Assembly: GCA_963969365.1 (NCBI GenBank)
Contig: OZ017763.1
Coordinates: 248,001 to 312,000, forward strand
DNA: 64,000 nt
Reading direction: 5' to 3'
DNA from: Asterochloris sp. CNOR1
Taxonomy: Eukaryota > Chlorophyta > Trebouxiophyceae > Trebouxiales > Trebouxiaceae
Under the pieces are notes generated by a model. It saw only the letters and a list, made by a program, of their open reading frames with translations. It ran no database searches and was not told the origin of the DNA. Below, piece after piece: positions 1-63,951 of this stretch; position 1 is the first letter of the stretch, and each line of letters starts with the position of its first letter. The translations under genes were made by a program, and so were the position numbers.

Positions 1-1
1 C

Positions 2-7251: not shown

Positions 7252-10200
7252 GCCTGGGCAACAGCAGGACAGACTATGCGCCCATGGCGGAGCTGCTGGA
7301 GGAGCAGGGGCTGGCAGTCTCCATTGCAGCGGTCAACAGGGTTGACTGGCTACGCAATGCAGCCGGCGTGGTGGACCCCAACTACTGGCGAGGGACCCTC
7401 AACCCGCGGCCCACAGTGGATTGGTGAGCTTGTTAGGGTTTAGGGTTGGTCCAGGAATGTTTCTTGGCTGACGCTTCGTTGTTGGCTGATCTCATCCTGC
7501 AATCCTCACCTGCTGCCCCAGAGCTGGCTGGTGAGCCTGCCTGGGAACTGGGGTTGCTGTGCATACCCGCTGCATCAGAGAGACTAGACTCACTGCAGCT
7601 GAGCAGTGTCGAGGCTGCTTTTGAAACACCCACCATGCTGGTGCCACTGCAGGCCTCCAAAGCACACAATGCTGCATGTACACCCAGCAATGGCCTCAGC
7701 GGGCCACTGCCGCTGAGCAACCCCAAGGCTGCCCTTCAGATCGCCACTGCATTGCTGCACCTGCAGGAACCTCAAGGTGACTTCAATTCCGCAAGCAATG
7801 GCCTTCAGCAGCCTCACCCACAGCTACAACCTCCTGCCTGCAGAATCGGCAGGAGGCAAGCCCTCCCCTGTATGCACCTGCAGGTACTTAAACCGCATTG
7901 AAGCTGCAGTCAATGGTCTGAAGCAGGAGACTGATGGCGCCCCAGTGACTCTTCTGGCGCACTCAGCAGGGGGCTGGCTGGGCCGCCTCTACCTGCTGGG
8001 CTTTGGCACATCCGGAATTGATCGCTTGGTCAGCATCGGGTCACCCCATCAGCCGCCCCCTCAGGTGGGCACGCAAAGCAGAGCGCTGCAGGTCGTATGT
8101 GCACCTGTGAGGCGTTTGCCTCACCCAACCTGGGACTGGCTTGCACTGTTGTGCCTGCTGGGCTGTGGCACAGCTGGTGCCCATGCTGAGGCACCGTTGG
8201 TCCTGACACAAGCTGCCCCCTCAGGTTCGCACAGACAGCTTCCATGCAGGTGTTGCGCAGCTGAAAACGGTCTCAGCTCACCTAACCAGCTGGCGCAGTA
8301 GGATGTCTGTGCAAACATAGCAATCAGCTCCTCATACTGCCCTCAGGGCATCAGGCAGACTGCTCTCAGCACCACATCTGTGATGGGTCCACAGTCAGCA
8401 TAACCTGTTGTACGGTCCTGCTCCTGGCCAACACAGTGCACTTCACAAATCTGCGCCTGCGCCTCAAATGTCCAGCACAGGTATTCCCCACCACATGCCA
8501 TGTCAGGCGGGTGTGCAGCAAGGCACTGCTGGCGGCTTGGGGCCCTGTGGCGCTGCTGGCTCACTCAGCTGTGCCACAGCTGTAATGCTGACTTGGTCAG
8601 CGCTGGGTGGCTGTTGATTCCCAGATCAGTGCAATCATTCTGTATCAATACGTGTACCAATGCTGCAGGGCCTGCACTGGTGCTAGGTGCTGGCAGCCCC
8701 TGGGAGAAAGCACTGTATTGCCTTGACGGTGCTGAGGTGGTCCTGCCACAGGGCATCAGCATCTGGCCCAGCGCTTGAACATCACTTACACTGCCAGCTT
8801 CAGCCAGCTTCAGCCACCGCTCCAACACCACGCGTTCCGCTGCAGGATGCAAAGGTGATGGACCAGACACGAGGCATCCTGACCCACGTCACCCAGGCCT
8901 GTCCCGGAAGGCACCATGCTGAGGTGGAGTACGTCACAGGTGAGCTGCTTGTGTGCGCAGCACAGGCAGGTATCACCCTCACACTGCAATAGGTCCAGCT
9001 GCTCTCCACGAGCCTTGCCCTGGCAGACATCAGGCGCAAGTGAGTATGTCACAGGCGAGCTGCTTGTGCGCACGGCACAGGCAGGTATCACCCTCACAGT
9101 GCAGTAGGTCCAGCTGCTCTTAACGAGCCTCGCCCTGGCAGACATCATGCACAAAGTGGGGTATGCCACAGTTGATATCAGTGTAGTAGTGCTTGTTGCC
9201 ACAGCTAGGTCTTGCTGTGGAACATATACTGCACAGGTGGAGGTGGGCTCAGTGGGACTCGCAGACATTCAGTTGCTGAGCTCAGAATGTCTTGGGCCTG
9301 TGGTGGCGGGTGCCATGCAGCAGTCAAGTGTGTTGCAGGGGACCAGCATGAGCAACGTGGTGAATGCTTGTGCACTTCAGGCTCTCATTGAGTCTGATTG
9401 CAACTTGCTTTGACCAGCCTGGCAGGCAGGCAAAGCTGTAGTCGCACGTGCAGGTGCGGGCTGTCGGAAACCTGTTGTCCACAGAGGCAGTGCGGCCCAG
9501 CACAGAAGCTGCAGTATATTGCAGGCACAGCTGCAGACATTCAAGCCTGCGCTGCCCACAAGGGCAGTGCCAGCTAGCACAGGAGCTGTAGCAAATTGCA
9601 GGTGCAACTGCATGCTGTTGAAAATGTGCTGTTCACCAAGGCAGTGCGGGGCCAGCACAGAAGGAGCGGGGACTGCACCTTGCTGGAGCCCTGTGAGACT
9701 CCTGCACTGTCCACAGCAACCTGCCTGGGTACTGCGCGCACATGTTTGCATGGTGACATGCAGGATCGACAGCTTGGCGTAAGTTCAAGAGCATCTTGCA
9801 GCCGTGTGAGGCTTGAGGGAACACAATTGCGCCTCTGACAACATGTTGACACTCAGAGCTGCATTTAAATTTGACCTGTACGCTTCCATGCACCTGAAAA
9901 CATTGCCGGTACTCTGCTGCCAGTCCAACAAAGCCCCTTGGCTGAGCCGGCTGTTGCCGCCGCGCGGTACCCTCGGCATCAACAGCTGCTCCTGTCCTCC
10001 AATGTGCTGCTCTGCTGCTGCAGTGGCTGGGAAGTACATTGAGGGAGCCACGCTCAGGCAGGCAGGGGCGACAGTGGCACAGAAGCTGGTGGGCCAGGTG
10101 AGGCCCTTGGGCATTCCTAGACACCAAGCATTGTGCAGAGCATGCCTGTTCTCATGTACTGGTTCACCAACACACACTGCCGGCAAGGTGATGCTCTCCT

Positions 10201-11732: not shown

Positions 11733-12362
11733 GATTCTGATACCGTCATCAGAGGGTGCTGCATGTGCCATGTGTGCATGCCACCAGAAGCAAGTCCAGC
11801 AGGCTCATCGCTAACCTGATATTCAGCAGCTAGTGCTGACCTGCTGAAGGCCTATTTGTTGCCTCAGCTGTCAGGCCTATGGCTGGCCTCCAGGAATGCA
11901 GCTGTTCTGCCGTGTGCCAGTAAGTCCCATATGCAGCTGTTGTGGGCTGCGGGATGTCGTGAACAGCTTTATGTTGCGCAACAAGTGCTGCTGCCCTAGG
12001 ACACCATTTGGCATGCAGCATATGCTTTTGCCAAGCCATTGAATTCTTCCCAGCTGTGTTCTTGCAGCCACTGCTTCTTACTGCATGTATACCAGCCTTT
12101 ACAGTTAGGTAGCTATGAAACAGATACAGCTTGCAGTTCAAGGTCAGCCAACTTGTCAAGCTGAGGCTGCTGGTGGTCAGTGTGTCCAGATGAGCACCAA
12201 ATTAAGTGAGAGGCAGGGACCAGGAGGGGCCGCTTAACTGTTCGCGCTACTGTCAAGCAAATCGATTTGTATCAAACAGGTTGAGTTTTGGTGTGGAGAT
12301 TCAGTACGTCTGTAGCAAAAGCAAGTGCCCCACATTGGGTGCTGGATGTAGAGGCCGGGCAT

Positions 12363-14449: not shown

Positions 14450-14720
14450 TGCTGTGTGTTGTGGGTGTCTGCAACAGAGCAAGCAGGCTATCAGCCCAAC
14501 TGCTGAGAGACCCACGATTAACACTCAAAGGGGCAGGCGGGCACGAGCAGTAGAGACGGGCGGACCGGTCAAGTAGCAGCACATTCCAAAAGATGCTCAG
14601 GCTGCGAGGCGGACCTCTGCACCCCGCCAAAACGTGACAGCAAGGCACGCTCACCTTGGGGATGGGGTTGGCTTGAAGCCGGAGGAGTGTGGAGTGCGAA
14701 GTGAAGTATAAACGAAATTC
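14450..14720 (-). promoter_or_regulatory. 5' leader and putative core promoter of ferritin-like copy 1
   Basis: Reading the minus strand, a donor (CAAG|GTGAGC) at 14655/14654 and an acceptor (TTGCAG|) at 14469/14468 frame a leader intron ending about 19 bp before the ATG. A TTTATAC element at about 14706-14712 is a possible TATA-like site some 50 bp upstream of the donor. Copy 2 has a similar leader donor (TGCAG|GTGAGC near 18617), suggesting the leader intron predates the duplication. Confidence 0.4.
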
Positions 14721-15395
14721 AGTTGGCAGGTGGTTTACCCGCCAAGCGGTGGCCGCCGTTCCCGATGTGACCTACGTTTGCACCAGCACGCAGCTTACAT
14801 GAGGCCAACTGCTTATGCGAGCTGCACTGCAGCTGATGAGCATTTGGTACTCCAGTTGTGTTAATCCTTGCATGGCCAGGATCCTGCCACAGCTGATCTT
14901 GTCTGCAAAGACACGACCGTGGCCACCAAGCAGACTCAAAAACACACCCTCAGCTCTTTGGGCTGGACATGGCTCGTATATGTTCCTGCCGCTGATATTT
15001 AGTGCAGTGCCTGACTTCTAACATCAGCACACGTTTAGTCCCAACTCCTCCCTGACCGGCTGTAACCCATGGCTTTGGTGCATCTGCAGCACACAGTCTT
15101 CCAACAAAGCCAGTTCCCTGTGCATTATTGACACTTATCCCTGACTAGCATCGCAGTTTTCATTTTCAAAAAACCAATGCAACCAGATAGAGACCAGGCA
15201 CCATGCTTGGTTTAGCATGAAGAGACTCATGCACCTCTCATATGGGTTCGGTCAACAGGGAAAGGGGATCAAGGATGGTCAGGGCGGTTGATGGAACCAA
15301 CAGATCCCAGATGGGGCAGGCAGTCTGAGTGTCCAGAGCACATCCACTAGCTATGGGCGAGCAGAGGGACAATAGTTATGTCTTGTGTATCGCGT
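14721..15395. other. intergenic between the ferritin-like paralogues
   Basis: 675 bp without a recognisable gene. It must contain the distal promoter of copy 1 and the 3' UTR of copy 2. Slightly AT-richer than its surroundings. Confidence 0.5.
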
Positions 15396-18257
15396 CTAAG
15401 AGCTCAGACCGCTCAGACCGGCTGGGAAGAACCCAGAGACAATGTTGGTGACCTCTGCAACAGTGCGCAAGAAGGCCAGGCTGTTGCTGTCGGCTGGAAT
15501 GATGTTGGCAGCCTGCAGCACAAATTAGGCAATAGTCAGTAGGGACACAAGCATGGAAGTTGGCAGCTGGCTTGGTAGGCTGCATCCCTGAGAGCCCGCA
15601 GCAGCAATGGCCGTCCACACAGACGCGCCAGCATAGCAGAGGGTGTGCAGCGCGGCTGACGCATTTTGCAGCAGAGCTTGCAGTGGGTGGTAGGTCCCAG
15701 CCAGCCCCACAGTGCAACCTGTGCAGCCAGCTAACTGTGTGTGCGCTGCAGAGTGCGCAGAGGAGCGCCAACACAAGCACTCAGTCGACCACCCTCCTTG
15801 TCCATAGTGCCGTCACATGTCCACAATGCAGCCCCATTATAACAGCTCACTCTCTGCCGTCATGCAATGCAGGACACCCTCAGCAGCATTCAAAAAAGCA
15901 TCTGCCACCCTTTCCCCTCATGGGCCCCAAGATATGAAACTCACCCCGCTGCTGGTAGTGATGCCTTGGTCATCACCGTCAGGGGCGGTGGCAGAATTCA
16001 CTGCAATTGTCAACTTTCCGCGCAGTGCAGAGATGGCATTGGCAACATCTGCCACAGTAGGACCATAAGGGGTGGCCACGTCGGCGCTGTCAAAGAGAGT
16101 CTTTCGGATCTGAAGGCAACAGGGAGGTGGGTGTTCAATGGGGCAGAGAGGTGGGTGCAGCTGCAGATGTAGACAGCCAGAGGTATGCATTCCATGACAG
16201 CGGGGCTTCGGCAGAGGATTGTTTACTTTGTTTACTCCTGAGAGTGGTGCCTGCCTCGCGAGTGCTGGGAGGCTCAGGAGAGCAAAGCCGCTGCATCATC
16301 CGCAGGCGTGCTTGCCAAGACCAAGGGTGGCACCTCCGCGAAGACAGAGGTGAGCAGGAGGCAGACCTCAATGACTCTTGTGGCTGGGCGAGGGAGCAAC
16401 ATATGAAGGCACCAACAGACACTACAGGTGCACCCTCATCCTTTATTAGTATTATTACTCACTGCGCCATATGAAGGCAGCGATAGACACTACAGGTGCA
16501 CCCCGATACGTTTATTGTTGTTGTTACTCACCGCGCCTGCGTGGTAGGCCTCAATGGCCAGGATGGAGGCAGCAGCGCTGACATACTCAGCCGCCATGAT
16601 GTCAGGGATGGCGCCATTGTAGGCAGTCACACCGACGTCCTCAAACACATAGGCAGCCAGGTAGCCAAAGAGGTCGTTGGTGGTGTACAGAAAGGGGGGG
16701 TTCTGCAGGCAGCCACACACAGGCCTCAGCCACAGCTCCTTCGACTTCTTCTTCAATGACATCGCTTTTGGCATGCTGAAGCCTGCTGTCATTGTGGACA
16801 AGCTGTGTTTCTGGGTCAAGAGCTTGTGTTGTGCAGGTAGAAAAGAACAGAGTAACCTAAGCCCTAGGCATTGACAGCTGAATGTAACTGCAGCACCTCA
16901 AGTCTGCCAGGTCGTGACGGTACAACAAGTACAGGGTATCTAGCACATTGATCTCACCAGCGTCTGGCCAACAGCCAGGTCTGCAGCTGTCTGCAAGAAG
17001 GTCAGGTTGAGCGGAGGGGAGGGTGGCGGAGTGACACCGGACGCAGACAAGGCACTCCTGAGGAACTGCAAGGCAGTGTGAAACAGCTCAGCGGTGTGCC
17101 CTTGCTCTGGCTAGGCTTGTATGATGTACACAGCTGGTGCACAGCAACAGGCATTCAAGCGCCTGGAGCCTGCAATGGCAGCACCAGCAGGTGGAGCGAG
17201 CCCTGGCAAGCATTCTTGCTGTGCTGTACAGCAGGCTGGGCAAAGCATTGCCGCTGTCAACCATGTTGATGCGCAGCAGGCAGGCGCAACATGAACGAGC
17301 CTGCGGCAACATGTAGACTGGCATGCACAGGTCGCCTGCCACCCAGTCACTCCCAACTTTTTAACCCTGGCACAGGTATATTGCATCCAAACCCGCCTAC
17401 ACAACCTGGCAGACAGGCCACAGCCGGTTGCCTGCCATGCAGCCCCTCCCTGGGCAGCAGTCGGCCCAGCAGCAGGCAGAGATCCCTGGCTCACCATAAC
17501 ATGGTTCTTCTCGTTTGAAGCAATCTCAGCCAGCACGCTGTTGGTGGCAGCAGTGTAGGAGCCCTTAGCACAGCCCTCAACGGTGGCGCTGCCCGCAACA
17601 CTGGCTGGCAGAGGGGCGCCGGTGGTGGCACAGCTGTAGAAGCTGCCCTCCAGATACTCCAGGTTTAGAGCAAAGATCACTGCAGGCACAGCACCATGGT
17701 TGTTCAGCAATTAAGTATGGCTGCAGCCATTTGTGAGCTCTATGCTGTAGGTACACCAATATGTCTTGTGGTAGGAATGCAGCATGCAAGCACAGCTGCC
17801 AAAGCTGCAGACCAGTTTGAATTTGTCTACACACATCGGACTTTTACGTGCAATCATGGGTATGCTCTTCAGGCCAATGGAGCAGGTGAGGTGTAGCTAT
17901 GAGTAAAAAGCAGCACCTGGTGAAGCAGTCATTACAGGCCAGCCAAGGCATGCAGGCAGCCTTGCATGACACTCCAAGGCAGATTGTATGTGACAAGTCT
18001 CACATACGTCCTGCCTTGGAGTGTCAAGCATGGCTCAGAAGAGGATGAGCCACATGACTAAGGCAGCTATGGGATGAAATAATGCTGTGATCGCACAGCA
18101 TCAAGGTTCACGGAGGCCACTCACAGATGTCAGCATCTGTCAGCCCAGGGGCTGCCCCTGCAGGGGCTGGTGCCTGCTGCAGACCCCTGCCTGCTGCCCT
18201 GGCTGCTGCGCCGGAAGCGAGTGCCAAAGCGGCGGTGGCTGCTGCCAGAACCCTCAT
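15396..18257 (-). CDS. secreted ferritin-like (Ferritin_2 / desiccation-related) protein, copy 2
   Basis: Six exons (18257-18125, 17679-17495, 17065-16958, 16702-16532, 16109-15945, 15512-15396) give 292 residues. Every intron falls at the same place and phase as in copy 1 (phase 1 after the leader exon, then phase 0), so the two arose by tandem gene duplication. Exon 4 has exactly 57 codons in both. Signal peptide [19 protein letters not shown]. Metal-ligand pattern retained: [14 protein letters not shown] (ExxH), VFEDVG, IEAYH (ExxH). The region before helix C has diverged most, which suggests an altered surface rather than loss of function. Intron 4 (minus-strand order) contains a 68-bp duplication including the donor (16400-16537). 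Role as for copy 1; secreted stress protein inferred. Confidence 0.92.
16400..16537 (-). repeat. 68-bp tandem duplication with the exon-4 donor of ferritin-like copy 2
   Basis: Copies start at 16400 and 16468 (CATATGAAGGC...). On the minus strand each contains GCGC(A/G)GTGAGTAA, i.e. the end of exon 4 and its GT donor. The exon-proximal copy is the used site. Confidence 0.85.
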
Positions 18258-19240: not shown

Positions 19241-22200
19241 ATGCTGATGCTCGCACGGCGTGGCTTCTGCAGTCGCCCCAGCAGTCTGTGGCAGACGCGG
19301 CCGCCGACCAAGCTGCAGCGTGCTGCCGCCCTCGTGCAGGAGCTGGCCGCACAGGCCCAGGCAGGCGGCCAGGGAGACAATGGCACGCAGCAGGCAAGTA
19401 GGGCAGGGACTGGGCTTTGCCTGCCTGGCTGGGGATATGGAGTGCATCAGCTGTGTCAGAGCTAGCCACAGACTTGGGCAGCCAATGAGGGAGGCAGTGG
19501 CATGCAGCAGGCAGGTAGGGCAGGAAGAGTAGTTTGACTGCTTGGTATGGGACCCAGACTGCATCAGCTAGCTGCACAATCCCATGCATGCAGATCCAAA
19601 GAGACTGCATGCAGCAGATGAGTTGGCGAGCAGACAAGTCTGGGCTTCTCAAGTGGGGAAGGGCAAGGGCAAGGGCAGCAGCCAGGTGCGCAGCCTCAAC
19701 TAGGCCACGGCGCAGGTGGCAGCACCCCAGCTACTTGTGCATCCAACAAGATTCCCTCCGCAGCTGTTGCTCAAAGGACAAGGGCCCCAGCAGACAGTGT
19801 GACATACCTGTGCCTTTGCTTGCAGCTCACACATCGCCAGTGGCGTTTTGTACGCATGGGTATTGACATTTCGGCAATGCAGGCAAACCATTTAGAGAAA
19901 TGCTATAGCATTGTTCACGTTGGTGCCTAGTTGCCAGGGTGCACATGCCCTTTGATTATCCCCTTGCCCTGTGCAGGCAACGGAGGTACCCAAGCCAGTG
20001 CTCGGAGGAGACGCTCCAGCAAATTGTCACACAGCTCTCTGCCCAGCCCCTTGTCTGGCCCGCCCAATGAACCCTCCGAGAAGCCCTCTTGAGTGCTGTG
20101 CAGGCAGCACGAGTGCCTCAGCGAGGTCTACATTGTAGAGCTCCCAGCAGATAGGCACAGCGGCCTGACTGCACCTGTCACTTTTGGCCCCGCCTGAGTG
20201 GCCCTGTGACTGCATGAGCTGTGCTGTGCAGGCAGCATTTGCCAAGCAAGATTGCAAGGGAGCACACCCCAGTACACAGACATGAGGCATCTCTGCAGCT
20301 GCCATCATGATTCTTACTGGATGAGCCCTCTGTTGGTTTCCTCCTGTCGTGTGCAGCAGAAGTCCACCAGTCAGATCTTTGGGCAAGCAGACCCCAGCAG
20401 GCAGGCACAGGGGGTTTTCCACAATAACCAGTCGTGGCCCCAGCAGACCGCCCTCTGATGGTTCCCCTGTTCTGTGCAGGCAGCAGACGTCCTCCAGTCG
20501 GACATTCAGGAAAGGAGGTCCCAGCAGGCAGGCACAGGGGCCTTTGCACAATTGCCGGTGGTGGCCCCAGCAGAAGAGCACATCGTGTCGGCCATGAAGC
20601 GCGCTCGCAAGGTGCCGCCCAACAATCGCCTCAAGAATGAGGCCCAGCGGGCACGCAACCTGTGAGTCTGGGGATGTATCTGACACGCAGACAGGCAGAT
20701 CCTGCACTCTGTCTGTGGCGCTGCTGCCTGTTTCACGTGCTGGTGCCTGCAGCCGCTGGCTCTGCTGCCTGCTGAAGTTTCAGATTGTGACACCTGCCCC
20801 TGAGCACAGCATGCGGAGTGCGCCTAAACACAGAGGTGACACACCATGCTGGGGCTGCCTCGTGGTCTGGGGCATTTCACCTGAGTGCAAATTGCTGACG
20901 CCCCTCTAGCTCCTGTGATAGGCCTGGGCCTTGCGGCAGTGGCTGTGCTGCCTGCTGAAGCACTGTAGAGTGACTCTGTATGTAGTGTAGCACAGCCTCC
21001 TCAGTAGGGCTGGCCCTAGACTGACTCTACAAGTAGTGTAGGGCGGCCTCCTTAACAGAGCTGGACCCGTCCAAGTTGCCGGGCTATGGCTGTGCTGTCT
21101 GCTGAAGGGCTGGCTGCTCAGCCGCTGCTGCAGGCACTAGGCTGCCTCATCTCGAGCAAGACATTGGTCTGACGGTAGGCGCTGGTCAAAGAGCAACAGC
21201 AGAGGGTGGTAGCCCAAAAGGTTGATGTAGCTGATGTCACAAGCTCTTCATCTTCATCAGTCCCTCCCAATCTCCCCAGATGTGCTGTGTCCTCCTGCTG
21301 TGCAGGGCTGCCAGGCAGTTGGACACCCTTACCAAGGAGCTGACCGGCCCACTGAGCAGATACGTGAAGGGTTTTCAGCACCCCTCACGGCTGCACCCCT
21401 TTGAGCGCGCCCTGCTGGAGCTGACGCTGGGGGAGGCCCGCTACTGCATCGCAGTGGAGCGCGTGGACACGCTGAGGAAGGCCATGCTGGAGGTGCGGGG
21501 CACCCCTGAAGCTGATGTTGTTTGGGCGGTTCTCATGGGCACAGGCGCTGCTGCACTGACACCGAGACCACTTGATGCGGCATAGCGGTGGTGGATGTTA
21601 ATTTGGGAAGAGCCTGCAAGCTGCGTGTTGATAACTACATCATTGATGTATAGCAGGCCACAGCTGGGAGGCCAACGACTGTTGGTCCCAGCATGCTATT
21701 TGTTACTGCTGTCCCTGGCCCTGGCAGGAGCCGATCTGCCTACGCAGGGGTTCTCAAGGCTGAGATCAAGATCCAGCTTGCGGCGGCGGAAAGCAGTTTT
21801 GAACAACCCCTGGCACACACGTGATGAGCAGCCATTCCTGCTTTCCCCCATCTACAGGCCAGCAACACAGGCCCTTGAGCAGCGAACAGTCTTGATTTCT
21901 CATGTCTGCAGACGGGCGCGGACCAGGCTGCCTACTCAAGACCATATATGAGGTCAAGACTTTGGCAGCTGACGGCTTTCATATGGATTTACCATGAAGG
22001 CATTTGATCCGTTTCCGCTTCCCCATCTGCAAATTGACCAAGGCCTCAGCTCTCTGGACATCTGCTATTCCATTCTTCATCCTGCCAATGGTTTTGGCTA
22101 AGGTCATGCATACTGTCGCTGCAGGCTGGCAAGGTCCAGGCTGCCCGTGCAGGCAAGCTCAAGACCAGGAAGGAGGCTGAGGCCGTGGCCGCTGACGGCT

Positions 22201-50668: not shown

Positions 50669-53600
50669 CTACCAGCGGCTGCCGCCGCCACGCGGCGCTG
50701 CGGGAGGAGGGGCGCGCCGGTCGTCGCGCCTGTCGCGATCATCACGGCGGTCGTCACGCGGCCGGTCATCGCGCCTGTCCCCAAAGGCACGTGGCCTGCA
50801 GCAGGGCAACATAAGTTTCTGAGTTCTCAGATCTGGGGCTGGCTTCTTCTGTGTTGGCTATCATCTTCATCCCTGCAATTAGGGGCCTGCAACAATATGT
50901 GCCTGTGATGACTGATGCCCAGGCCCCATCCAGCTGCTGCCATGACCTTAAGCGCCTCAGTCCAGTCAGGTAGACCTGCCTGGACCTCTTGCTATTGACA
51001 ATAGCAAGGTGACACAGCCACACCAGCACTCCCCACACAGTGAGGTAAGGGCTGCTCACGCCCCCCCAGTTGTAACTTGCTCTGCACTAGTGTTCCCTGA
51101 GCAACCTTATCCATTGAGGGATAAGGAGAGTGCGACGGATTCCTGTATTATCTTGTGGGAATGCAAGCCTGGCACAGCAGTCCCAGGCAGCCTCTGGTTG
51201 AACAGTGCTCACCTGTAGGGCTCACGCTCTCCGCCAGCACGGGGCACAGGCGCACGCTCCTCACGAGCTGGGGGCGGAGCTGCATCGCGGGGGGGCTCGG
51301 CGCCCTCCCTCGAGCCGCGCGGGCGCCACTTGTTGTCGCTGCCAGCTGCAGGGGCAGGGCAGGGCGACTGTCACAATGTTGTGCTGACAGGTCATCTGCG
51401 GCCACTTGTTTGGCGCGCCAGCTGTAGGGGCACGGCAGATGAACCGTCAAAGCGGTGTGCTGAGTACGGTCACGTCAGTGACGGCTGCGTGTGGACCGCT
51501 TGTTGTTGCTGCCAGCTGCAGGGGCAAGTCAGGTAGGGACCTGGCAGACTAGTCTGCAGAGGGCGCCCACACAAGCCAAGGCGCCTGGGGCCGAGTGGAC
51601 GAGAGGTGACAGCATCAGCACCAGGCTGGCAGGAGGCTGCCACCCTGCTTTGTCAAGATGCTGCTAGGTCTGCTCAGACATGTGCAGGCCTCTGCAACGG
51701 TGCGCAACTTGGAGCTGGTCGATGCCTCGCTGCCAAGCGGAAAGATGCAAATGTTGGCCTCCTGAGCACGCTACTCGAGTCTGTCACCAGCAAGGCCACT
51801 GCAGCCCTAACAATATGGCAGCTCCATAGGGACCTACAAACGTCAATCGGCCTGGCCGCCGCAGCCCTTGCCAGACCCTGACTCCCCAGTACATTGAGCT
51901 CGTATCACTGAAGCTGCTGGGTGATGCCCGTGTAAATAAAGGCAGCTCACCTGCGGGCGCTGCGCCCGGCCCTGTCGTCCGGCTGGGAGCCCAGGCAGCC
52001 CTCTTGTCATCCTCTGCTGGGCGCTCCCCCTGGCGGGCCTCAGCCCTCTCGGGCCGGTCAGCACCAGCTGCAGGGGCCCCCTCACGGCGGCCCCACCGGC
52101 TGGGCTCCTGCAGGAGATGGTGTGGGTCGTCACATTTGGGTCTTGAACGCCTCGCCCAAAAGGGCATCCTGGCCTGCCACCTGCTGCTCACTGCAAGGGT
52201 CAAGGGCCTGGACATGGCGGGGCAGTTCGCCCAGTTGGGGCGGTGTCCTTGGACGCAGCAGCTTGTCATATGTCAGGCAGGTTGTGGGCCCAGTAGCAAG
52301 GAAGCCGGCTCACAAAAGAAGCCAGGCTGTCCTGCAATCTGCTGGGATCATCGAAGGCCAAACGCCTGGGGCAGGACAGGTAAGGGCAATGGATTCAGTG
52401 GATGCGTGAGAGGGGGGGCTTTGCAGCATGGTCTGGGCCTGCTGCTTCACGAGTGCAAAGTCAGGTGTGCAGGGCAGCTGGCCATTGCCTCAGCCCCTGT
52501 TTTGTTGAGACTTTTTAACAAGGTGAGGGTGCTGCATCTGCAGGCAGCTGGGTGCCAGATGCACCTGCCGGCAGCGACAGCTGCATGTCTTGCCTTAGCA
52601 ACTGGGGGCACATGTGACTCATCCCCACAGACTTCTGATGCAGGACACAGTGGTGCATTGCAGCAGATTCCCCACACAACATTGTATTCACAATGATTTT
52701 GGACCTCGCCCTGCCAGCCTGTGTGCAGCAGCACATTGCCCAGGCAGCAAGCTCACCTCGCCCGAGCGGGCCGGAGGCGCCTCCTCGCGTGCCCGCGCAG
52801 AGGGAGGGGCGTAGCCGCCTGTCCGACGTGTGGGGGGCAGGTAGCCACCGCCGCCGCCGCTGGGAGCTGCTGTTGCTGCTGGGGCAGGGCGGCGCAGGAT
52901 GGCCTCTTCCCTGTCCTTCTTCTGCAGGCAGAGGAAGCAGTTCTTTGAGACCAGAGATGACCTCTACTATGTGCTTATTGTGCAGGCACGTGTGCTGAGG
53001 ACCTCCTTCACACACACACACAATGCAATTCGTGCTTGTTGAAACTATCTGCTGACAAGAGTGCAGATGCTTGGCCTGCAGACTGGCCTCGTTCAGGCTG
53101 GGGAGTGCAGTGCGCAGCAAGAATGGAGTGCAGCTAGCCAAGCTTTGAGACCTGCAATGCGCACCCACTGTCATAGCTGCCCTTTATAGCTGCCAGGCAC
53201 TTCGCCAGCTGACCTCCGCCATGCAGTAGTTCAGCAGGCAGTCCTCACGTCGCTCTCTGTGCTGGCGATGCTCCTCAAGCAGGGAGAGGCAGCCAGCCAT
53301 GCTTCCCTCCTGGGCTGCTGTGGCTTGTGAAGACACCGGCAACAGGACTGGGCTGTGCACATTTGTTTCAACTCACTGCTCGCTCCTCAATTTCCTTCTC
53401 CCTCTGGCGCTGCTTCTCGGTGGCCTCCTCCAGCTTGCGCAGACGCTCTGCCTCCTGCTCCTTCTTCAGGTCAGCCTCTCGCTGCATGCGCTCAGCCTCC
53501 TGGCGCATCTCCTCTTCCTCTTGCTGCAGCAAAGGACGAATGCTCAGGGGAAACGACGGTTGAGACTGGGGCACATAGGTGCTGGCTGCGCTCAGCATCC

Positions 53601-56600
53601 TGCTGCCTCTCCTTCCTTCTCCTCGCTGCAGAAAAGGGATACTTCAAGTGGTCTCTCCTGCACCAAAGCTTGTGGACAAGGCCCCCTGGCACACTGCTGC
53701 ATGTTTGCCTTGTACACTGATGGCGATGTGCGTACGCTGGCGGTAGGGTGCACAGGTTAGCTGTGAGCTGAGGGTAGTTGCATGAGTGCAGTGCTTGCCC
53801 TCAGCCGCCTGGCACAGGCACTCCTCATCATGCTGCAGCAGAATTTTGGTGCACTCCCTGATCAAAAGTGACTAGGAGGGTTGAGGGACACTTGTGCTGC
53901 ATGCCCTCATTTAGTTACTAAAGCTCTGCTCACAACTCCACCATCATAGAGCCATCATTCCACATGTGCTCCCTACTGCATGATTTTCTTGACTCAAAAA
54001 TTGGACTAGCGGTTGCATGCATTCAGTCACAGAGGATCTCACCTCGTGCACAGCTGACATGACATCCTGCTTTTCAAGTCGTCAAACATGTCGCATGTGG
54101 AGGCCATGCGGCCAAGTGCTGCACACCTGGCTGCCAGCGCATGCCCCAACCTGCAGCCATGCTCCTCTACCTGCTACCAGGCCCATTGCCACAAATAGTG
54201 GCCACCAGGACAGCCCAAGTAGGAACAAGTTTGAACTGTGCACCAGGGCATCCACCCACCTCAGCCCTGCGCTCCTCAATCTGCACCCGCACACGGCGCA
54301 CAAACTCGCGCTTGCGCGCAACGTCCCTCTCGTGGCGACGCATGGCCTTGCGCTCCTCAATCTCCTCCTCACGGGCCCTCTGCAAGATGGTTGAGCTGGG
54401 GGTCAGTAACAGGCCTAGGCTCTTGTGGAAGATGTCAGTGGACAAGATTGTGCTGGAAATGTACAGATGGGAGGGACGGCAGCAGCGTGACGCATCATGC
54501 GGCACAGGCCCCATGTGCCGTCGTGCAGCCATCAGCACATGGGGCGCTGCATGACCCCTGAGTGTCTCTTGTGTCATGCAGGCGTGTGGTGCTGGCACAG
54601 CAATTGCCGGCAAGGTGGCTGCATGCCCAGAGCTGCTGTGCCAGGGCTGTGCTTGCTTGCCACTATCGACCGACAAGCTGCAGGCTGCTCGACCCACCCT
54701 GAGGGCACCAGAAATGTTGCACCGCTGAAGTTGCCATGATGCTCTGTGGAAAAAACAGTGTAACTAGCCACAAGAAACTCCCACACTCCCATAAAGGCTG
54801 GTGTGAGTGCCGCAGCGAGCTGGGATTTGGCCACAAAACGGAACCCACCTCGAGATCAAACAGACCTGTCTGCCTGCTGCCTCATGGTCTGCAACCGAAC
54901 TACTTCTGGCTGGGTGGCAACCCTAGCAGTCACAGGATACTTCCTTTCAGAAGCAGGCTGGGCCTGCCCCAGACATCTGCCAGCCTAGAGCACTTCAATG
55001 GGTCCTCCGCCTGCCCACCTTGAGGTCGGCAAATTCGTCAGCCCGCCGCTTCATGATCTGCTGCTGGAAGTCCTCCTTGTGAGGCAGCATCTTAGCCAGG
55101 CGGTCCTTGGCCACCTTGGCTGCCTCCCAATCTGTCCTGTGCTGGGCTGCAAATTGGCGCCGCTGCTGTGCAAACTCCACCTCGTCCAGCTGCAGGGCAC
55201 ACAGCGAATGCAGTCAGCATCGTGCATTGATTCTATGGTGACCATGCTGTGCCTCTACCCCACAGGGGCGGCCAACCACTGCCCAGGCAGCAAGGTGGCC
55301 TGCCTCCACATCCACCCCTGCACCACCTCATAGCCCCTGTTGAAGAACCAGAGAGGACAAAATTTGGTTTGAGATTGAAACAAACCTTGAGGGTTTCCGT
55401 GCCTGCTTGTGCTTCAGCAGCAGGTAAGCTGCCATGCTACCTCATCTCCCGCCCTGCACCATGCTGGCTGCCCCTTGCCGCCAACAGCATGAGGTGCAAC
55501 ATTGGGGGCCCAGGCACGCTGCTCCTGGAGCAGAGGGCTCCTCCAATGCAGGACAGGAGCATGCATAGCCTGACAAGTCTCACCTTGAGGCTCTCAGCAT
55601 ACTGCTCTTGCAGCAAAGGGGCCTCCACCTCCCGGCGTGCCCGCTCCAGGTGGTCCATGCGCTTGATGGTCACCTCCATACGCTTGCGCTGCTCAATACG
55701 CGCCTTTTGTTGCTCCTCCATGGCTTCCTGCAGCACACAGTGCACAACATGGCTGTCAACGAACGCTCCTGGCAGCTCAGTCGAGTCAGCAGCTGCCCAG
55801 GGCGGGGGTGTGCCTGCTGCTGCTCAAGTGGTTCCTGCAGAATCAAGTACAGCAGAACCCCTTGATGGCACGCTCAACTCAGCAGCTGCTTTAACACCGC
55901 TCTGTGCGCACGTTCCACTGCATCTCCATGGCTTCCTGCTGGTGGCCGGAGCAGAGATGAGCTACATGCAGAAGGATACGCACCAGGCAAGCTCGGGCGT
56001 TCGGACCTCGGTGCTCTTTTTTGCAAATGCCTCATCATACAGACAGGCCCCCACCGTCTGAGCTGCTCTGCCATCAAGGCCTAGAGCAGAGCAGCCAGCA
56101 TTCGTAGCAAGATATATTGGATGGGCCAGCATGCTCAGGTTGACAGCTACTCACTACAAAATTATGTATGTCTTGCTAGCAGCTTACCAGTACAGCGGGC
56201 TGCAGCTGCCCTTCATCACAAAACAGAGCTGCAGCATAACCTCTGTGCTGAGCACGTCACGGCACAAGCGGCCACAGCAAGTTGCTGACTGACGCTACGC
56301 CAGATGGAAAGAGCACCTGCGTCCCCCAAAGCAAGGACCTGAGGATTGCCTGGCTGGCTTTGATTGGCGGCACGGCATTGCCACTGCTTGCCAGCATGGG
56401 TGAAATCATGGACCCAAACCCTGTGCCCCAGGGCCCACCTGCATGAGTGCCTGCTTGTCCAGCTTCTCGCCATCCTTGCGTGGGCGCCGCTTTCCCGCAG
56501 CCTTGGCCAGCAGCTCCTCAGCCTCCTGCAGTAGTACGTAGGGCAGCTGGTGAGACACATGCTGGCTAACGTCAGATAGTATTGCCCATTACGGCAGTCA

Positions 56601-59600
56601 GCTCTTGCTGGTGGGACGACGTATATGACTGCATATGCAGTTGCAGGCTGTACAGCAACAGGCTGAACATGGGGTACCAGGTGCGTCAGATGGTGGCTGG
56701 TCTCAAGAGCATGGCTGCGGATCCGGCAAGAAGCAGTCAAGCAGACCTGATTATGAGCAGTCGGTGAGCCACCCGCTTTCCAGAACCTCAGGCATGGATA
56801 TGGCCTGCCGAATTGCATGAGAAATCAGACCAGCAGGTTAACCCCAGAATATGTGCCTGCTAACTGCTACTGCCTTGGGTCTCCGTGCCTACAATGCCTT
56901 GAGCACAGGATCTGTGTGAGAATCTGACCTCACCTGCAGCTCCTTCTCCTCCAGCTCGCGCTTAATGCGATCTTCCTCACGCTTGATCCTGCAGGCAGAC
57001 ACTGCCAGGGTGATTTTCGATGAAGTGTAGTGTTGCACTCAAGGACAGCTCAGCTTGGGTATGTCACTGGCCTGCTCTCTTCAGACATTATGTCTAGTCA
57101 GGCATTTGTCTGGCAGCTTGCACACGATGCCTAAGACGATGCAGCACCTCTTGGTGGCCTGCTCTGACTGTCCTAGATGCTGCAGCATGGTAGCACCTGC
57201 AGGCTGATCCCCATGCAGCCATGCTAGGCCTTCAGCCCTCCTAAAACAACCATCAGAACTCTGCCTGACAGGCTTCCCTGCCCACTCACAAGGGTCACAT
57301 CTTCCTGCATGAAGCACAAGCCCAATCTGCCATTCCAAACCTCCTGATGTCCTTCCCCAAACGGTGCAGTCGCCCAAACACTGCAATGGACTCACATGTC
57401 CTTGCGCCGACGCTCCTCCTCGGCCTGCTCTGTTGCCTTCAGCTGCATCATGCGCGAGCGCTCAGCCTCCTCCTCAGCCTGCATGAGACGGCGCTCTGCC
57501 TCCTCCTTGCGGCGCTCGATCATCAGCTTGCGGGCGTTGGCACGCACATTGTCCTGTTGGGCAGACTGCAGCGCCTGCTGGATGGCCTGCAGTGCATTGG
57601 AGCATGGACTTAGCAGGGCAGCTGCTTGGCCTGCAAGGGATTGAAGCCAGCTTCACAAACGTCTACTTTCGAGATATTGATGTGATGACTCTGTTCGCAA
57701 GACATCTGTTGGCCTCCAGTTTGATGCCCCCACGCCTAAAGAGATATGCTTGCAAAACCAGAAAGGGCATCTGCATGCGCCTTGCCATGAGTCGATGAAA
57801 AGGGCTTTGTGCAGCACAGACTGTCACAACACAGCTCTCACCTTGTCATGCCCAAAGTCAGCACAGCCCCCCGGCTGAGCGACTGTTATCTGAACGCGTC
57901 TGGCCATGTGATCTTCATACCGATCAGAGCAAGTCTTGGCATGATGCCGACCCCACACAGCTACTGAATTGATAAGGAGCCTGTGATCTGTCCTGCCTGA
58001 AGCAGATAATCCTCCGGCTGAGTCACTGTCACCTGGATGCGCCTGACCTCGTGGTCCTCTGGCCGGTCAGGGCGAGTCATGGTCAGTGCGCGGCTGAGGC
58101 GCTTGGACAGCGTGCTCAGATGATCCTGCAGCTGCTCAGACTCCAGCTGGGGCGCCCCAAAGTGCACTGTTCCATTCCTGTGGTCAATGCGGACCTGCAT
58201 GGCACAGGCAAGTAACGGTGCTGAGCTTGTGCATCACATTTGAGCATGGGGCAGCTGCAAGCAAACTAACAAACCCTGCCAAGGCACACCTGATAATTAG
58301 CCTCAGGCTAGTGGACTCGGCAGTGTCAGTGCCAGGCATGCTGCCAGGAAGCATTGGCTCTGGTAAGAGTGGATGGGCTACAGACGAGGCCTGCTGGATT
58401 GGCAGAGGTAGGCACACAAGTGACCATGACACGCCCAGGCAGGGGCCCCACCTGCAGAAAGTCATGCTTGACTGCGTCCACAATCAGCTGCTCCACATCG
58501 CTGAAGCCCATGAAGGGCACCAGCGCCTCCAGACTGTCGACGCGCATAACTGAGTACACCTGGCTCAGCTGCTGAAGCAGGCGCAGGACAGCGACCTGCT
58601 GCAGGCTGGCCGTGTACTGCTCCAGGCCAACATCCACCACTGGGCTGGCGCCTGCAGGGCAGTGCAGGCAGTTGTCGGTGAGGCCGGCCTCAGATGATGC
58701 AGCAGGCTTTGGACAGCTACCTGCTGCAGGCTGGTTGTGTACAAGGCCAGCATCCAACACGGCGCTGGCACCTGCAGGGCAGATGCCATGCGGGCTTGAT
58801 GGCATGCCACTGCACCTGCAGGTGCACACCTGTGGGGAAGATGCCACTTAAGCAAAGCTGCTTGGAGGCCTGATCAGCATCTGCAGCCTACACCTGTGCA
58901 AATGTGCACTGCAGCTGCAGCTGATCACCAGCATCTGCCCTGACGTGGGTGTGTCGAAAAAATGGGCTTGACCGCACGTCAATGCATCTGAGCATCAAAT
59001 GCAGCTCTGCTCTTCCACACCAGCACCAATTCGTACCCCCCTCTTGTGCAGGACTGACCCGAGCCACGTTTCAGTAGACCACTCATCATCGTGCGGAGCA
59101 GCTGCACTTCCCAAATTACATCACCCACTGAAGGTGCCCACTGACAGCTCCAGAGACTACCCACCTGACATGGGCTTGGACAGGCCGCCCAGCGTCTCGA
59201 GCAGCGGCTGCAGGCGGTGACACAGCTCCAGGGGCACAAAGTCGCCCTCCAGAAGAGTCAGGATCTGCTTGATCTCATCTGGCACCAGGTTGCCCACACC
59301 CTTGGAGGCCAGCTCCCCCACGAGGGCTGTGCGGGCCAGCACATTCCTGCAGGCACGCCGTAGACAGCACCTCAGCTGGCTTGACTCGGCGACAGCAGGC
59401 ACCAGCTTGCCCATGCCCCTCAGGCCAGCCCCCACACTGGGTGTGCTGACTGAATGCATGCCCTTACATGAGAGGGAAGACGCACCTCAGCGCAGTTGTT
59501 GTGCAAGATGAATCAACTGGCAGGTTCCCACAACCACCTGGCAGGCCAGCCTCCCCAAAAGGATATGGGAACATGCCCTGATAGCCCCGCATGAACCCAC

Positions 59601-62600
59601 AGGCAACACAGCTGCACTGCATTGGCCCCACACCATGGCAACATACAGAATGGTGGCCAAGCACATGCTTCAGGCCCACCAGCCTGACAGATGCACTCAC
59701 AGCTTGGTGAGTGCATACAATTATTTCTACCTTCCAGCCCTGTATGCATGCTGCTCTGCAGAGATTCATTTCTGCGATTTTCAGCATGCATTCCCACCTG
59801 GCGTCACGCTTGGCGTCCACAGCAAAGCCCAGTATGGTGGCCATGCGCATGCTGCGCTCCTTGTCCAGCTCTGCATCTGCCTCAGAGCGCCCCCCTGTCT
59901 GCCCATCATACGGCAGGATGGACAGCGCGGCCAGCAGAACGGAGCAGGCCATCATCTGCATATCTGTCTGAGTCAGGCCCTTGTTGTAGGTCTTGGACAG
60001 ATTGAACAGCTTGTACCTGCAGCAGCAGGGTTGGTTGATCTCAGCACCAGCATGACAGAACCATCAGCTCTGCAGAGCCCTTGCTGTGGATATCCAGCAT
60101 ACTAAAAAGCTTTCAAGCCACTAGTGCTTGGCACACTCTGGCTGCATTCACAGCCAGCCTTGGCCACAAAAGGCGCCAAGCCTCACCAGGCGTAGCCATT
60201 GTACAGGCGGCTGCCTGAGACGCTGAAGATCTTGGTCAGCTTGGCGTAGTAGGTGGCCATCATCTGGGGCTTGGCTGGCTTGCGCTTCATGGCAAGCAGG
60301 CCCTGCAGGTCCTCCACGGACCGGAAGGCCTCCTGCCACAGCTCAAGATCACAGGCCACCTGCAGCGCAGGGGACAGATACATCCATTAGTCATCACTGC
60401 TTTGCCAATCGACATAGCCCCTGCCATTGCCTGAGTCTGCAGAACACCTTCACAGAGATGCTTGTCAGGCAGTCAGCCAGCCTGGACAACCGGCTGCTGG
60501 CCCTAGCAGAAGCATGCAGGCCACCGGTAAGGTGCTGCAAGCAGCCACATGGGGCACCTAGCAGCAGCCCTTGCAGTAGCAAAACGGCCAGCAACAGACA
60601 TGGGTATCAGCATGGCATACATCCCACCAGCAGGTGCCTGTCAAAGTGTATGGGCGTATGCTATGGGGCACACAGCAGCAGACAACAAGGCAAAACAGCG
60701 AAGCTGCAAAACAAGCTGCAGAATCAGTTGCACCTTAACCCCTGGTGTTAGTGTGACATACTGCAAAGGCACTCTCCTTGGATTCCTCAAAGCTGTTACC
60801 AGGTGCATCTTGAGAGGCCGTGGTCTATGTTGTGTGCAGAGAGTCGCTCTGCAAGAGACGAAGCGCATTGGGTACCCACCTTGAGCTGCTCAAAGCGGGT
60901 GTCCAGGTACAGCTGCATGGACTCGGGGTTGCCCAGGTCGGGCCTGTCCCTCTGGTCGCGATACCTGCACAGCACATGAAGACAGGTGAGGTCAAGTTGC
61001 TACAGAGCTGCAGATCGTCGTTGAAATGGCAGGTGTAGCTAAACTGCTGCATGAACCTGTCAGGAAGTGCTCATCTCCAGACAGACCAGGGTGGCTAATG
61101 CACCGCCGGTGCAGGTACACTGACGCCGCAGCCAGGACCTGGGACGGGCTGCTGATGCCTAAAGCACAGACAGGCCCTGAGTCTGTACACCCCCCCCTGT
61201 GAGCACGCCAGGGCTTCAGGCGGCGCCAATGCGGGTGCACTGACACCGCAGCCATGCTGTGGAGGGGCTGCTGATGCCTCGCACAAAGACAGGGGCAAAG
61301 CACACGTGGCCCTGAAGCCTGGCAAGTTCCTTGACGCCCATGAATGTTGTGTAGCCTTATGCAGGCCTGCAGGTGCTCACTTATTGAGGTTGACCAGGTG
61401 GTTGCGCAGGATGTCACACAGGCGCCGGAACTCAGTGGTGCGCTTGTAGGTCATGCAGAACTGGAAGGCCTTGGTGGCCGTCATGGCGTACAGAGCCTCC
61501 AGCCTGCAACCAGGAGAGCACAGTGGCTGCTGCCAGTGCACCACAGAAAATCACTGAGCCTTGCTTGCAGAGTGGCATACAGAGCCTCCAGGGCGCCCAG
61601 TGGCACTGCCTAAAGATGCCTGCAACTCGTAGACTGCCCATCAGACAAGTTCCAAAAGGTGTGCGCATAGATAGCAGTCCAGGTGAGCACACCCTTTGCA
61701 GCATGCCAGCAGCAGGCCTGAGTGCTGTGCAAGCAGCTGCATCCAGCAATACCAGCCAGCAGAGGCAGACAGCAGCGACTGGTGGCAGAAATCTCCATCA
61801 TAGCAGTAGGACTCAGGCAGGCCTGCAACCAGACCACTGGTTAAAATACCAGCCCTTGCCCACATCACAGCTGTCTGTTGCTCACCTGCTGTTGTTGCGC
61901 AGAATGTCCAGCACAGTGCGGTAGGTCTCCCACAGGAACTTGAACCAGGGGGTCACCAGCTCCCGATCCAGGCGGTCCTGCAGACACAACAAGAACTGAT
62001 GACATGCTGTAATTTTGGACAGATTGGGGGAGCGGTGGACCAGCATTGGGACTTGTGGGGTGAGCGGCCCACAGGGGGAATGGAGCCAAGAAGCGCCAGA
62101 GAGAGTGCAGGGAAGCCCTCCGGGAGAAGCAGGCCAGAGCAGGCGGGTAGCACTGCAGCACGTCTACACATGATGTGGAGTTGGTAGGAATGCACCTGAG
62201 CAGTTGCAAGTTTGAGAGGGACCCAGTGAGCACCATTGCAGGCCTTTACTTGTGAGGCTGCGGCCAGACATGGGCAACCCGACAACTGCTCTGGGGCGGC
62301 TCGGCGCAACACAGCACCAGTCTGCATCTGGCCAGCCTGTTGCTGCCAGTACATGCATGCATTGCAGGATGAGCGTGACTGGACCAAGGACAGCCGGCAA
62401 ACAGCTGGGGAAGCACCAACACATGCATCAGCATTTACACCTTGCCCTTCTCCCCGCTGACGTAGCTCATCATCAGATCCTCAGGCCGGGCATCTGCCTC
62501 CAGGTCCTCTACATCCTCCAGAGCAGCCTGCGGGGCAGAAGCATGTGAGGTATCCAGCCAAGGGAGTCACATTGATGAAAGTGACCAGCTCTCATATATC

Positions 62601-63951
62601 AGTCATGTCCTCCAGGGCACCCTGGAGGCCAACAGGGACACTGTGAATGCGAAAGCTGCTGGACCCACACTAAGAGGAGTTGTCGTCTGCAGGTCCTCAA
62701 GGATAGTTGGCAATAGCAATTCATGTGAGTTGCACAGCTGATGCTAGCATGAGCATGGTCACATATGCAAGGAGCTCCTTGAGGACCTGCATGCAATCAC
62801 AGGTGTCTGGCCCCTGTGATAGATGATCCCTGTGAAGGGCACCCATGCAGTGTAGCGGTAAAACATTGCACTGAACCTGCTGGTTGACCTAGTGCACTTG
62901 GGCACAGAAATCAGCAGGCAACAAGGCAGGAGCCACCCTTGACATTCTCTTCGCATACTTGATGCATGGGAAGCGCAGGCCTCACATGCACGAAGATCCC
63001 AGCCTCTGGGCAGCCGCAGCGTCCCCAGCTCGGCCTAAAACCCACATCCTGGTCTTCTAGTGCGGCACAGTTTCTGTAAAGACATCCCCATGCCTTGCTC
63101 TGCGCCTCATAAACTTTGGATTTCATTGCCGCCCTTAGGGTGCCAGTGCAATGCAGGGCGGTGCTGAGGCCTCACAGTGCTTTGGGCAGCTGCACTCTGT
63201 CCAGCTTGGCCTTGCCCTTTCTTTGTGCAGTGTAGTCCTCATCTGCAAGGGCCCTAGAGAGGGTCATCTAGCTCACCTTGGCCTTGCTCTGTGCCTCCTC
63301 GGCCCTGTCCGTCGTCGTTTTGAGGTAATACTTGATGACCTCCTCCAGGGATTGCACATTGACCTGCAGTCACATGGTTTCAAATCAGCAGATGTCTCTT
63401 GCCGCTGGCTGGTGAACCTGTGTGGCGGGTCCACAACCTGAGTCACCGACGTCCAGGGCTGCACCAATGTCTGTGAGAAGCAAGCCCAGGCAGCGCTGCA
63501 GCAGGCCTCAGGCTGCTTGCACTACTCAAGCCAAACGCGAGCTCAAGGCAAGCGCAATACCCCGGCATTGTCAGGGTGCACATGCCTGTGGACAGTTGCA
63601 GCCAGGGGATCAGCATGATGGCAGTGGACTTAGGGACAGTGGTATCCATTCAATTGCTGGATGTCGTGCAGGACGGGATGCAGCCAAGCTGCCGCCTATG
63701 GCCACTGGGTTGGCTGCCTCTGCAGCCTTGGAGATGCACAGCAGCGCCCATCTCACATGCACAGCCTCAGGCTAAGTGGCTAGCTTTGAAGCCTGCACCC
63801 TTTCTGACAACAGGAAGTGACTGAACTGAGTGCTTTAGAGGCGCACCTGTTGGCAGATGTTACGATAGTGGATGAGCCCATCTTTGGCATGGCGCCCCTT
63901 CTTCAGCTCAATGCACAGGTCCACATACTTGAACATGATCTGCTCCAGCAC
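50669..63951 (-). CDS. eIF3a: translation initiation factor eIF3 subunit a (N-terminal exon outside window)
   Basis: Phase-consistent exons: 63951-63847, 63363-63277, 62527-62441, 61977-61886, 61503-61381, 60964-60880, 60359-60187, 60016-59798, 59346-59165, 58651-58452, 58194-57997, 57586-57396, 56988-56934, 56525-56439, 55727-55584, 55189-55019, 54379-54260, 53523-53377, (one small exon near 53271-53213), 52921-52757, 52107-51951, 51345-51213, 50795-50669; about 1,016 codons plus the small exon. The opening block ([17 protein letters not shown]) is the family signature, so only some 40 residues are missing. Helical repeats and the PCI domain ([33 protein letters not shown]) follow, then a highly charged coiled coil (spectrin-like), and finally an Arg/Asp/Gly tail of RRDD repeats ending RGGGSRW. 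Role: scaffold of the eIF3 complex on the 40S subunit in the cytoplasm. Intron after 57997 is probably GC-AG. Exon ghosts occur in several introns. Confidence 0.95.
57852..57955 (-). repeat. ghost copy of an eIF3a exon end, still open
   Basis: The block 57870-57938 aligns without gaps to 58014-58082 in the exon 58194-57997; by hand I count 20 differences in 69 bp, about 16 of them transitions. In the corresponding minus-strand frame it is open, keeps EDH..RR(V/I)Q(I/V)TV.QP and runs on to a good donor (GACAAG|GTGAGA at about 57843). It may be a decayed copy or an alternative exon. Confidence 0.7.
58565..58783 (-). repeat. about 125-bp duplication of an eIF3a exon start
   Basis: The region 58591-58662 (exon start plus CTGCAG acceptor) is repeated at 58717-58783: ACCTGCTGCAGGCTGG, GTGTAC, CCA(A/G)CATCCA and GGCGCCTGCAGGGCAG are shared. 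On the minus strand the copy sits upstream of the real acceptor and carries its own acceptor. Confidence 0.85.
61101..61294 (+). repeat. intronic direct repeat, about 75 bp, spaced 120 bp
   Basis: 61101-61175 and 61220-61294 share TGCA(C/G)...CACTGACRCCGCAGCCA and GGGCTGCTGATGCCT then CA(G/A)ACAGG. Within an eIF3a intron; not linked to an exon edge that I can see. Confidence 0.75.

Follow-up and report, generated by a model that had tools for sequence, protein, structure and literature searches.

How introns lengthen without transposons is, to our knowledge, poorly understood. The work of Gao and Lynch from 2009 reportedly emphasised the creation or multiplication of introns. As represented by the papers that cite it, that work concerned tandem segments within genes, introns included, and in this it resembles the locus described here, which differs in that introns are lengthened, the density is high and the copies are decayed. 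Here we present an analysis of introns in the green alga Asterochloris sp. CNOR1, centred on a stretch of 64,000 nucleotides (contig OZ017763.1, positions 248,001 to 312,000, from a source genome of 56.4 Mb in 21 contigs; hereafter the window) in which many introns contain a copy of the edge of their own exon. We consider it probable that these copies derive from small tandem duplications that arise blindly with respect to genes, are dense in this genome and are kept where splicing hides them.

Several described systems share part of this pattern. In the potato RdRp gene, as told in the relevant passages of PMC4974935, a tandem duplication likewise spans an intron end and the start of the next exon, and an 83-bp tandem duplication, of the size class seen here, lies wholly within an intron; there one event made a new intron, whereas many events here add to the length of existing introns, none of 153 of which reaches the score for gain. 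The staggered breaks with fill-in and end joining treated in part of PMC8355091 also yield direct, short duplications; the Asterochloris units differ in having a mode at 60-130 bp and in being mostly old, and any similar repair route for them is hypothetical. For novel intron positions in Drosophila, the passages of PMC2891723 consider the duplication of exon and splice motif with an intronised copy, in cases that, according to its authors, are not backed by remaining sequence similarity; here similarity is precisely what is seen. Relatives of Chlamydomonas (PMC8226300) are likewise green algae with conspicuously long introns, their median being 198-343 bp and their advantage called unknown, and the relevant passages of that paper make no mention of tandem duplication as a source of that length. 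The open literature, at the level of titles and the beginnings of abstracts and with most subscription papers beyond its scope, covers the intron-gain model, single exon-edge cases and repair models and contains no account of introns growing through dense copies of exon edges, which is weak evidence of novelty.

Exon-edge copies within their own introns

Genes were predicted with a splice-aware hidden Markov model gene finder that trained itself, with no external labels or transcripts, on the window plus 17 loci of ten kilobases each. Its output has acceptors of the form CTGCAG/G, donors of the form CAG/GTGAG and about 11% GC donors (in the window and loci L002-L018, GC replaces GT at the start of about 11-13% of predicted introns). 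The CTGCAG within this extended acceptor consensus is a PstI site. The median intron measures 374.5 bp among 280 predicted introns and 394 bp among the 156 confident ones, the median internal exon is 123.5 bp, and the 51 predicted genes contain 0 internal stops, which the model partly enforces. Stretches whose predicted proteins we read as transposon- or virus-like (L002, L007, L013, L014 and window positions 1-4300) were left out from the main tests on; they account for 24 of the 156 introns and 10 of 138 gapped pairs.

For each intron of 120-2000 bp, the two adjoining exon edges (at most 80 bp of exon plus 20 bp of intron) were aligned to the remainder of that intron, with the scores of edges from introns of other loci as the null. 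The first sample, of 142 introns, had 16 that matched their donor edge and 21 that matched their acceptor edge at p<=0.01. After the exclusions, 34 of 125 introns (window and 13 loci) matched one or the other of their own edges at this level, where about 2% (about 2.5 introns) are expected, and so did 7 of 21 in a held-out set of six loci outside the training data; permissive scoring gave 37 of 125 and again 7 of 21. Copies of an exon's own edge within the adjoining intron, the central observation of a preliminary description of this DNA made from sequence alone, are therefore confirmed by the swapped-edge test which that description had proposed, and its interpretation is partly supported.

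The copies accumulate in long introns. Pooling both sets, 41 of 146 introns carry an own-edge copy: 30 of the 69 that are at least 450 bp long, against 11 of the 77 shorter ones (Fisher p=1e-4). At score 26 there are 67 copies on 48 of 294 edges, compared with 26 matches in 1764 swapped comparisons and never more than one copy there. A single copy is present at 35 of the 48 copy-bearing edges and 3-4 copies at 5 of the 294. Three intronic copies with successive spacings of about 77-202 bp are seen at L010 before 811, L017 before 2111 and L024 near 5560 and 7286; read by eye, the cores at the L017 edge are without indel or stop. Copies farther from the exon had been described as more decayed, a trend that did not appear: offset and identity are not significantly correlated (Spearman +0.13, p=0.39), and the nearest copy exceeds the farthest in similarity at only 7 of 13 multi-copy edges.

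The window was also tested gene by gene, using the 86 edges of 43 introns no shorter than 120 bp in nine genes, and 105 control introns of other loci; the exon list was entered by hand with low-scoring exons omitted, and the hydrolase exons were set by eye. Five of seven named window proteins have Pfam matches above the curated cut-off (ferritin-like, NOG1 GTPase, TLC, DUF676 lipase and HAD, the TLC match being of the ceramide-synthase, CerS, type); those of AP2 and the first hydrolase fall below it, and eIF3a is a label from the preliminary description, used here as eIF3a-like. Own-intron matches at p<=0.02 occurred at 21 of 86 edges under strict and 26 of 86 under permissive scoring, with 1.7 expected. 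The strict matches fall in 6 of 9 genes (hydrolase, NOG1, CerS, lipase, AP2 and eIF3a-like) and the permissive ones in 8 of 9, with ferritin copy 1 and HAD added; the matches of CerS and of these two are weak. The count of eight genes in nine given earlier is thus matched only permissively, and with ferritin copy 1 among the eight. Ferritin copy 2, which had been listed instead, gave no match in this test, where the model misplaced the exon end; its 68-bp pair at 16400-16537 visibly repeats the exon end and donor. Stronger support for HAD comes from two copies of the exon-48485 acceptor that lie upstream of it, in an intron outside the nine-gene test. The copies in the window are as follows.

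6902-6933, plus strand: second upstream copy of the hydrolase acceptor, offset 332
7088..7109, plus strand: upstream copy of the hydrolase acceptor CTGCAG/GCCTGG, true edge 7251/7252, offset 156
8101..8172, plus strand: decayed copy of hydrolase 7939-8010 (exon by eye) in the next intron, offset 162, 69% over 72 bp
8924..9171, plus strand: hydrolase donor edge (exon end near 8939, by eye) with downstream tandem copies, period 115, 2.1 copies (Tandem Repeats Finder, TRF); the pair has spacing 115 and 88% identity across 130 aligned bases
16400..16537, minus strand: ferritin-like copy 2, a single repeat of the exon end with its GTGAGT donor (period 68, 2.0 copies)
20325..20572, no strand: tandem pair lying beyond the predicted genes, 78% identical across 127 bp at a spacing of about 125; a duplication of the same type that involves no exon edge
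21935..21979, plus strand: NOG1-like intron copy, at offset 223, of 22158-22202, which lies 33 bp inside the acceptor of exon 22125-22310
22653..22676, plus strand: NOG1-like intron copy of the acceptor edge of exon 23023-23147, offset 365
31669..31710, plus strand: copy of lipase exon end 31585-31626, offset 84, weak (score 30)
36329..36378, plus strand: copy, within the downstream intron, of positions 36055-36104 of an AP2 exon, offset 274
37023..37268, plus strand: intron-interior copies with no exon edge, spacings 106 and 113
37655..37691, plus strand: copy of AP2-gene acceptor edge 37942/37943, offset 276, with another at 37864-37890, offset 67
48175..48214, plus strand: acceptor edge of HAD exon 48485-48621 copied at offset 301, and again at 48304-48340 with offset 175; 88% and 86%
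51401..51533, minus strand: two intronic copies of eIF3a-like acceptor edge 51345, offsets 76 and 170
53581..53637, minus strand: intronic copy of eIF3a-like acceptor edge 53523, offset about 100
55924..55939, minus strand: short intronic copy of eIF3a-like acceptor edge 55727, offset 208
58689..58787, minus strand: intronic copy of eIF3a-like acceptor edge 58651, offset about 120-125, score 90, 85% over 85 bp, the strongest edge copy of the window
59398..59438, minus strand: copy of segment 59281-59321 (about 25 bp inside the acceptor) of eIF3a-like exon 59165-59346, offset 117
59646..59669, minus strand: copy of segment 59830-59853 (about 33 bp from the donor) of eIF3a-like exon 59798-60016, offset 184
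61573..61591, minus strand: short intronic copy of eIF3a-like exon start 61503, offset 89

Other repeats and predicted proteins were seen beside these. A minisatellite or satellite reading of the edge copies, which would require a fixed period and many copies, was rejected, as they mostly occur singly. Downstream of the AP2 exons, a 44-bp array of 5 copies at 38766-38984 is an exception to this non-satellite pattern, and a 27-bp repeat of 2.4 copies lies at 39369-39446, inside a predicted exon. The neighbouring ferritin-like genes (12366-14449 and 16493-18031) share three matching stretches of 70-85% identity, and their introns can no longer be aligned for a comparison of unit number. At L012:6184-6600 and about 400 bp downstream, a spacing of 393-404 bp with a predicted exon in both copies, 79-86% identical, perhaps reflects duplication of a whole exon rather than an edge copy. 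Among the stretches left out, L014:2209-6120 (plus strand) encodes a predicted 622-aa protein with D5_N and DUF5906 matches that looks like the product of a virus-type primase-helicase gene in the algal genome. Related predicted proteins recur in window 1-4208, L002, L007 and L013 (three pieces without a Pfam match) and probably belong to a mobile element; one stretch seems to be present in both orientations in L007, and a Pfam scan of the transposon-like eighth window protein gave no match.

Local direct copies, their unit and their age

Copying is local and direct. Ungapped matches at offsets of 15-600 (score 18) number 133, against 6 and 1 at two far ranges, in the window and 18 loci, one of which, the plastid contig L019, is counted in this comparison only; the six held-out loci give 25 near matches against 0 and 0 far. 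(Contig C21, 215 kb with a sampled GC of 0.40, encodes a plastid-type rubisco large chain with best PDB match 8q04, and we take this and the next PDB matches to be green-algal proteins.) Gapped alignment of 249.7 kb of transposon-free sequence finds 128 near pairs at spacings of 40-500, compared with 5 at 3.0-3.46 kb. At score 30, a direct copy exists for 228 of the 5364 tiles and an inverted one within the same distance range for 13; the far controls give 10 and 4. In both orientation and locality the copies are as expected of small tandem duplication, and the recurrent local process proposed earlier is borne out in this form.

Such copies are not confined to exon edges, contrary to the edge-centred account first given: intron-interior tiles match nearly as often as edge tiles, and copies also occur outside genes. 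At a 1% null, a near copy is found for 10.5% of intron-interior, 12.6% of edge, 8.8% of exon, 5.5% of intergenic and 13.6% of mixed tiles; the permissive figures are 13.5%, 14.2%, 11.5%, 8.7% and 14.9%. Of 118 pairs with at least 25 aligned bases, 52 join an intron to an exon edge or exon and 36 are wholly intronic; 19 touch sequence beyond the predicted genes, 10 have exon or edge in both copies and 1 is wholly exonic, against about 5 expected. Edges are nonetheless over-represented, since the edge type makes up 52 of 88 pairs where uniform placement of the unit predicts 37% (odds ratio 2.46, 95% interval 1.61-3.75; 40 of 71 pairs in the first run). This unit-level null replaced an earlier permutation that slid the short aligned pieces (36 edge-crossing pairs against 19.1, and 4 exon-to-intron pairs against 13.0 expected), because the duplicated unit is longer than the part that still aligns. 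An exon copy stays readable for longer because its partner is held still by selection, so much of the edge excess is expected; simulations of this unequal decay yield edge odds of 1.29-1.92. The alignments reach a median of 8 bp into the intron at donors (18 edges) and 12.5 bp at acceptors (26 edges), and 44.5 bp and 31 bp into the exon (44 edges in total), a difference that follows from the same unequal decay.

After correction for detectability, unit size peaks at 60-130 bp and falls on both sides (density per bp of unit size 1.12 at 110-135, 0.28 at 170-225 and 0.05 at 350-450), a mode narrower than the usual spacing of 45-130 bp first reported and a size below about 200 bp, as expected of small tandem duplications. 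Young copies are few. In 78 pairs with at least 45 aligned bases, identity is at least 92% in 0, 84-92% in 9, 76-84% in 31 and 68-76% in 38, and simulated detection is complete to 20% divergence. Constant production predicts a youngest class at least as large as the older ones at any loss rate, and the rate of production therefore was apparently higher at an earlier time; alternatively, the deficit may reflect collapse during assembly or high divergence between alleles when the copies arose. Shorter repeats, with units of 15-27 bp, reach 91-100% identity in several cases, so young short repeats do survive assembly. The process had been called ongoing, a term that the near absence of near-identical pairs does not favour.

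Recognisable copies make up 5.6% of the bases predicted to be intronic, 6.3% of exonic and 3.9% of intergenic bases. By a rough calculation by hand (67 copies less about 4 by chance, 294 edges, units near 100 bp), about 0.002 events per base fall within the window of readability, or about one per 450-bp intron, adding about one fifth of its length. Long introns do carry more edge copies; that they are largely fossil copies, as had been suggested, is possible and goes beyond the 5.6% that can be recognised.

Competing explanations

The reading that we consider probable, gene-blind duplication, would work as follows. Small segments, mostly of 60-130 bp, would be duplicated in tandem largely without regard to genes, usually giving one extra copy and sometimes a short series, perhaps when staggered breaks or paired nicks are filled in and their ends joined. 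Selection would remove most units that fall inside exons, whereas those inside introns would be tolerated. A unit straddling an exon edge would be tolerated as well: splicing presumably uses the exon-attached copy and removes the other as intron, so that the intron would grow by about one unit and retain a copy of the exon end and splice site. The spare copy would then decay neutrally while selection holds the real edge, so that mainly the exon part and the splice signal would remain recognisable and the pattern would look edge-centred.

Several observations weigh against this account. The gene models on which it draws are computed, without transcripts. The edge odds of 2.46 exceed the simulated range, which makes a residual preference for edges possible. 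Two of 109 pairs with at least 30 bases stand at 93-94% identity (lengths 30 and 31 bp), and the excluded virus- or transposon-like locus L013 holds a pair of 68-bp units that are 96% identical. Adjacency is also imperfect. Median L/d is 0.55-0.66 in 24 interior pairs of 68-84% identity and 0.13-0.59 in five interior pairs above 84%, where simulations that allow large indels give 0.84-1.0; in 20 pairs at 80% identity with 45 or more bases, L/d lies at 0.85-1.15 in 6 and below 0.7 in 12; and in 17 of 66 pairs the spacer is similar to the flank beside it (p<=0.05). Strict head-to-tail adjacency therefore holds for a minority only. Later indels explain some of the low values, as at position 1148 of L009, where matching, read by eye, resumes after a gap; repeated short patches copied at a distance are another possible source.

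The best-surviving alternative, which we regard as unlikely, is a process that seeks out edges, in which exon ends or splice sites serve as templates (by patch synthesis or RNA-related copying, for example) and are pasted into the intron. It would account for edge odds above those simulated, for aligned lengths shorter than the spacing and for the five edges with 3-4 copies, some of which share a core around TGCAG/ with little similarity between cores (L017, L010). It does not predict that 36 of 118 pairs are wholly intronic and that 19 touch sequence beyond the predicted genes, or that inverted copies are in little excess. Copying driven by the acceptor motif was rejected, since TGCAG on the coding strand is not notably enriched in interior pairs (in both copies of 15 of 41 and in either of 18, where random intron segments give 12.3, standard deviation 2.9) and its reverse-strand form CTGCA is found alike or more often (both 16, either 28 of 41; random 12.9).

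Creation of introns by tandem duplication of an exonic AGGT segment, the Rogers model put forward in the preliminary description, is improbable for the copies seen here. Edge-crossing tandem duplications do exist in this sample, and the literature treats the model as demonstrated in other cases (PMC3443670, section 8; the potato gene in PMC4974935). Such a gain would leave the donor and acceptor regions alike at an offset equal to the intron length, and this resemblance reaches score 20 in 0 of 153 introns (1.08 expected) and score 18 in 2 (2.86 expected); the first sample likewise gave 0 of 156. The visible events therefore lengthened existing introns, and there is no sign in the sample that duplications made new ones. 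The model is mostly refuted for gains of visible age; very old gains would have lost their trace.

Slightly less credible still is a function for the copies, as alternative acceptors or donors, decoys or recursive splice points under selection. Many of them retain TGCAG/G or GGTG, and the splice dinucleotide is identical in 16 of the 21 copies that cover it; overall identity alone predicts 15.1, and in these small numbers there is no sign of selection for or against retention. The offsets show no preference for multiples of three: 14 leave a remainder of 0, 7 of 1 and 12 of 2. We take the copies to be presumably neutral.

Two explanations can practically be set aside. Mobile introns of the introner type, or a dispersed repeat that introns have in common, would suit the high density (introners reportedly occur in about 5% of the species searched; PMC9860276), but they are refuted in this sample, where no more than 0.02% of comparisons between an intron and edges taken from other loci reach score 34, swapped comparisons rarely match even at score 26 (26 of 1764) and far controls are nearly empty. 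A compositional artefact of CTGCAG-rich sequence, codon bias and splice consensus, which the very strong acceptor consensus CTGCAG/G might suggest and which the preliminary description had named as the check on its own claim, is excluded because own-edge matches are well above those of swapped edges with the same consensus and composition, and far offsets rarely match.

Implications for intron growth

Resemblance of an intron to its own exon edge is, taken alone, no proof of intron gain. Since selection preserves one member of each pair, such pairs can be read as a clock for intron growth that runs on one side only; a legible own-edge copy survives in 30 of the 69 introns that measure 450 bp or more. 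Beyond this, and only tentatively, we raise the rather doubtful possibility that intron length in this alga is set mainly by the turnover of tandem duplications of about 100 bp, with a past genome-wide pulse, selection keeping those that splicing hides, and long introns largely as stacks of decayed units in which the exon-edge copies form the layer that can still be read. If this were true, exon edges would serve as dated reference marks for the history of intron growth in a single genome.

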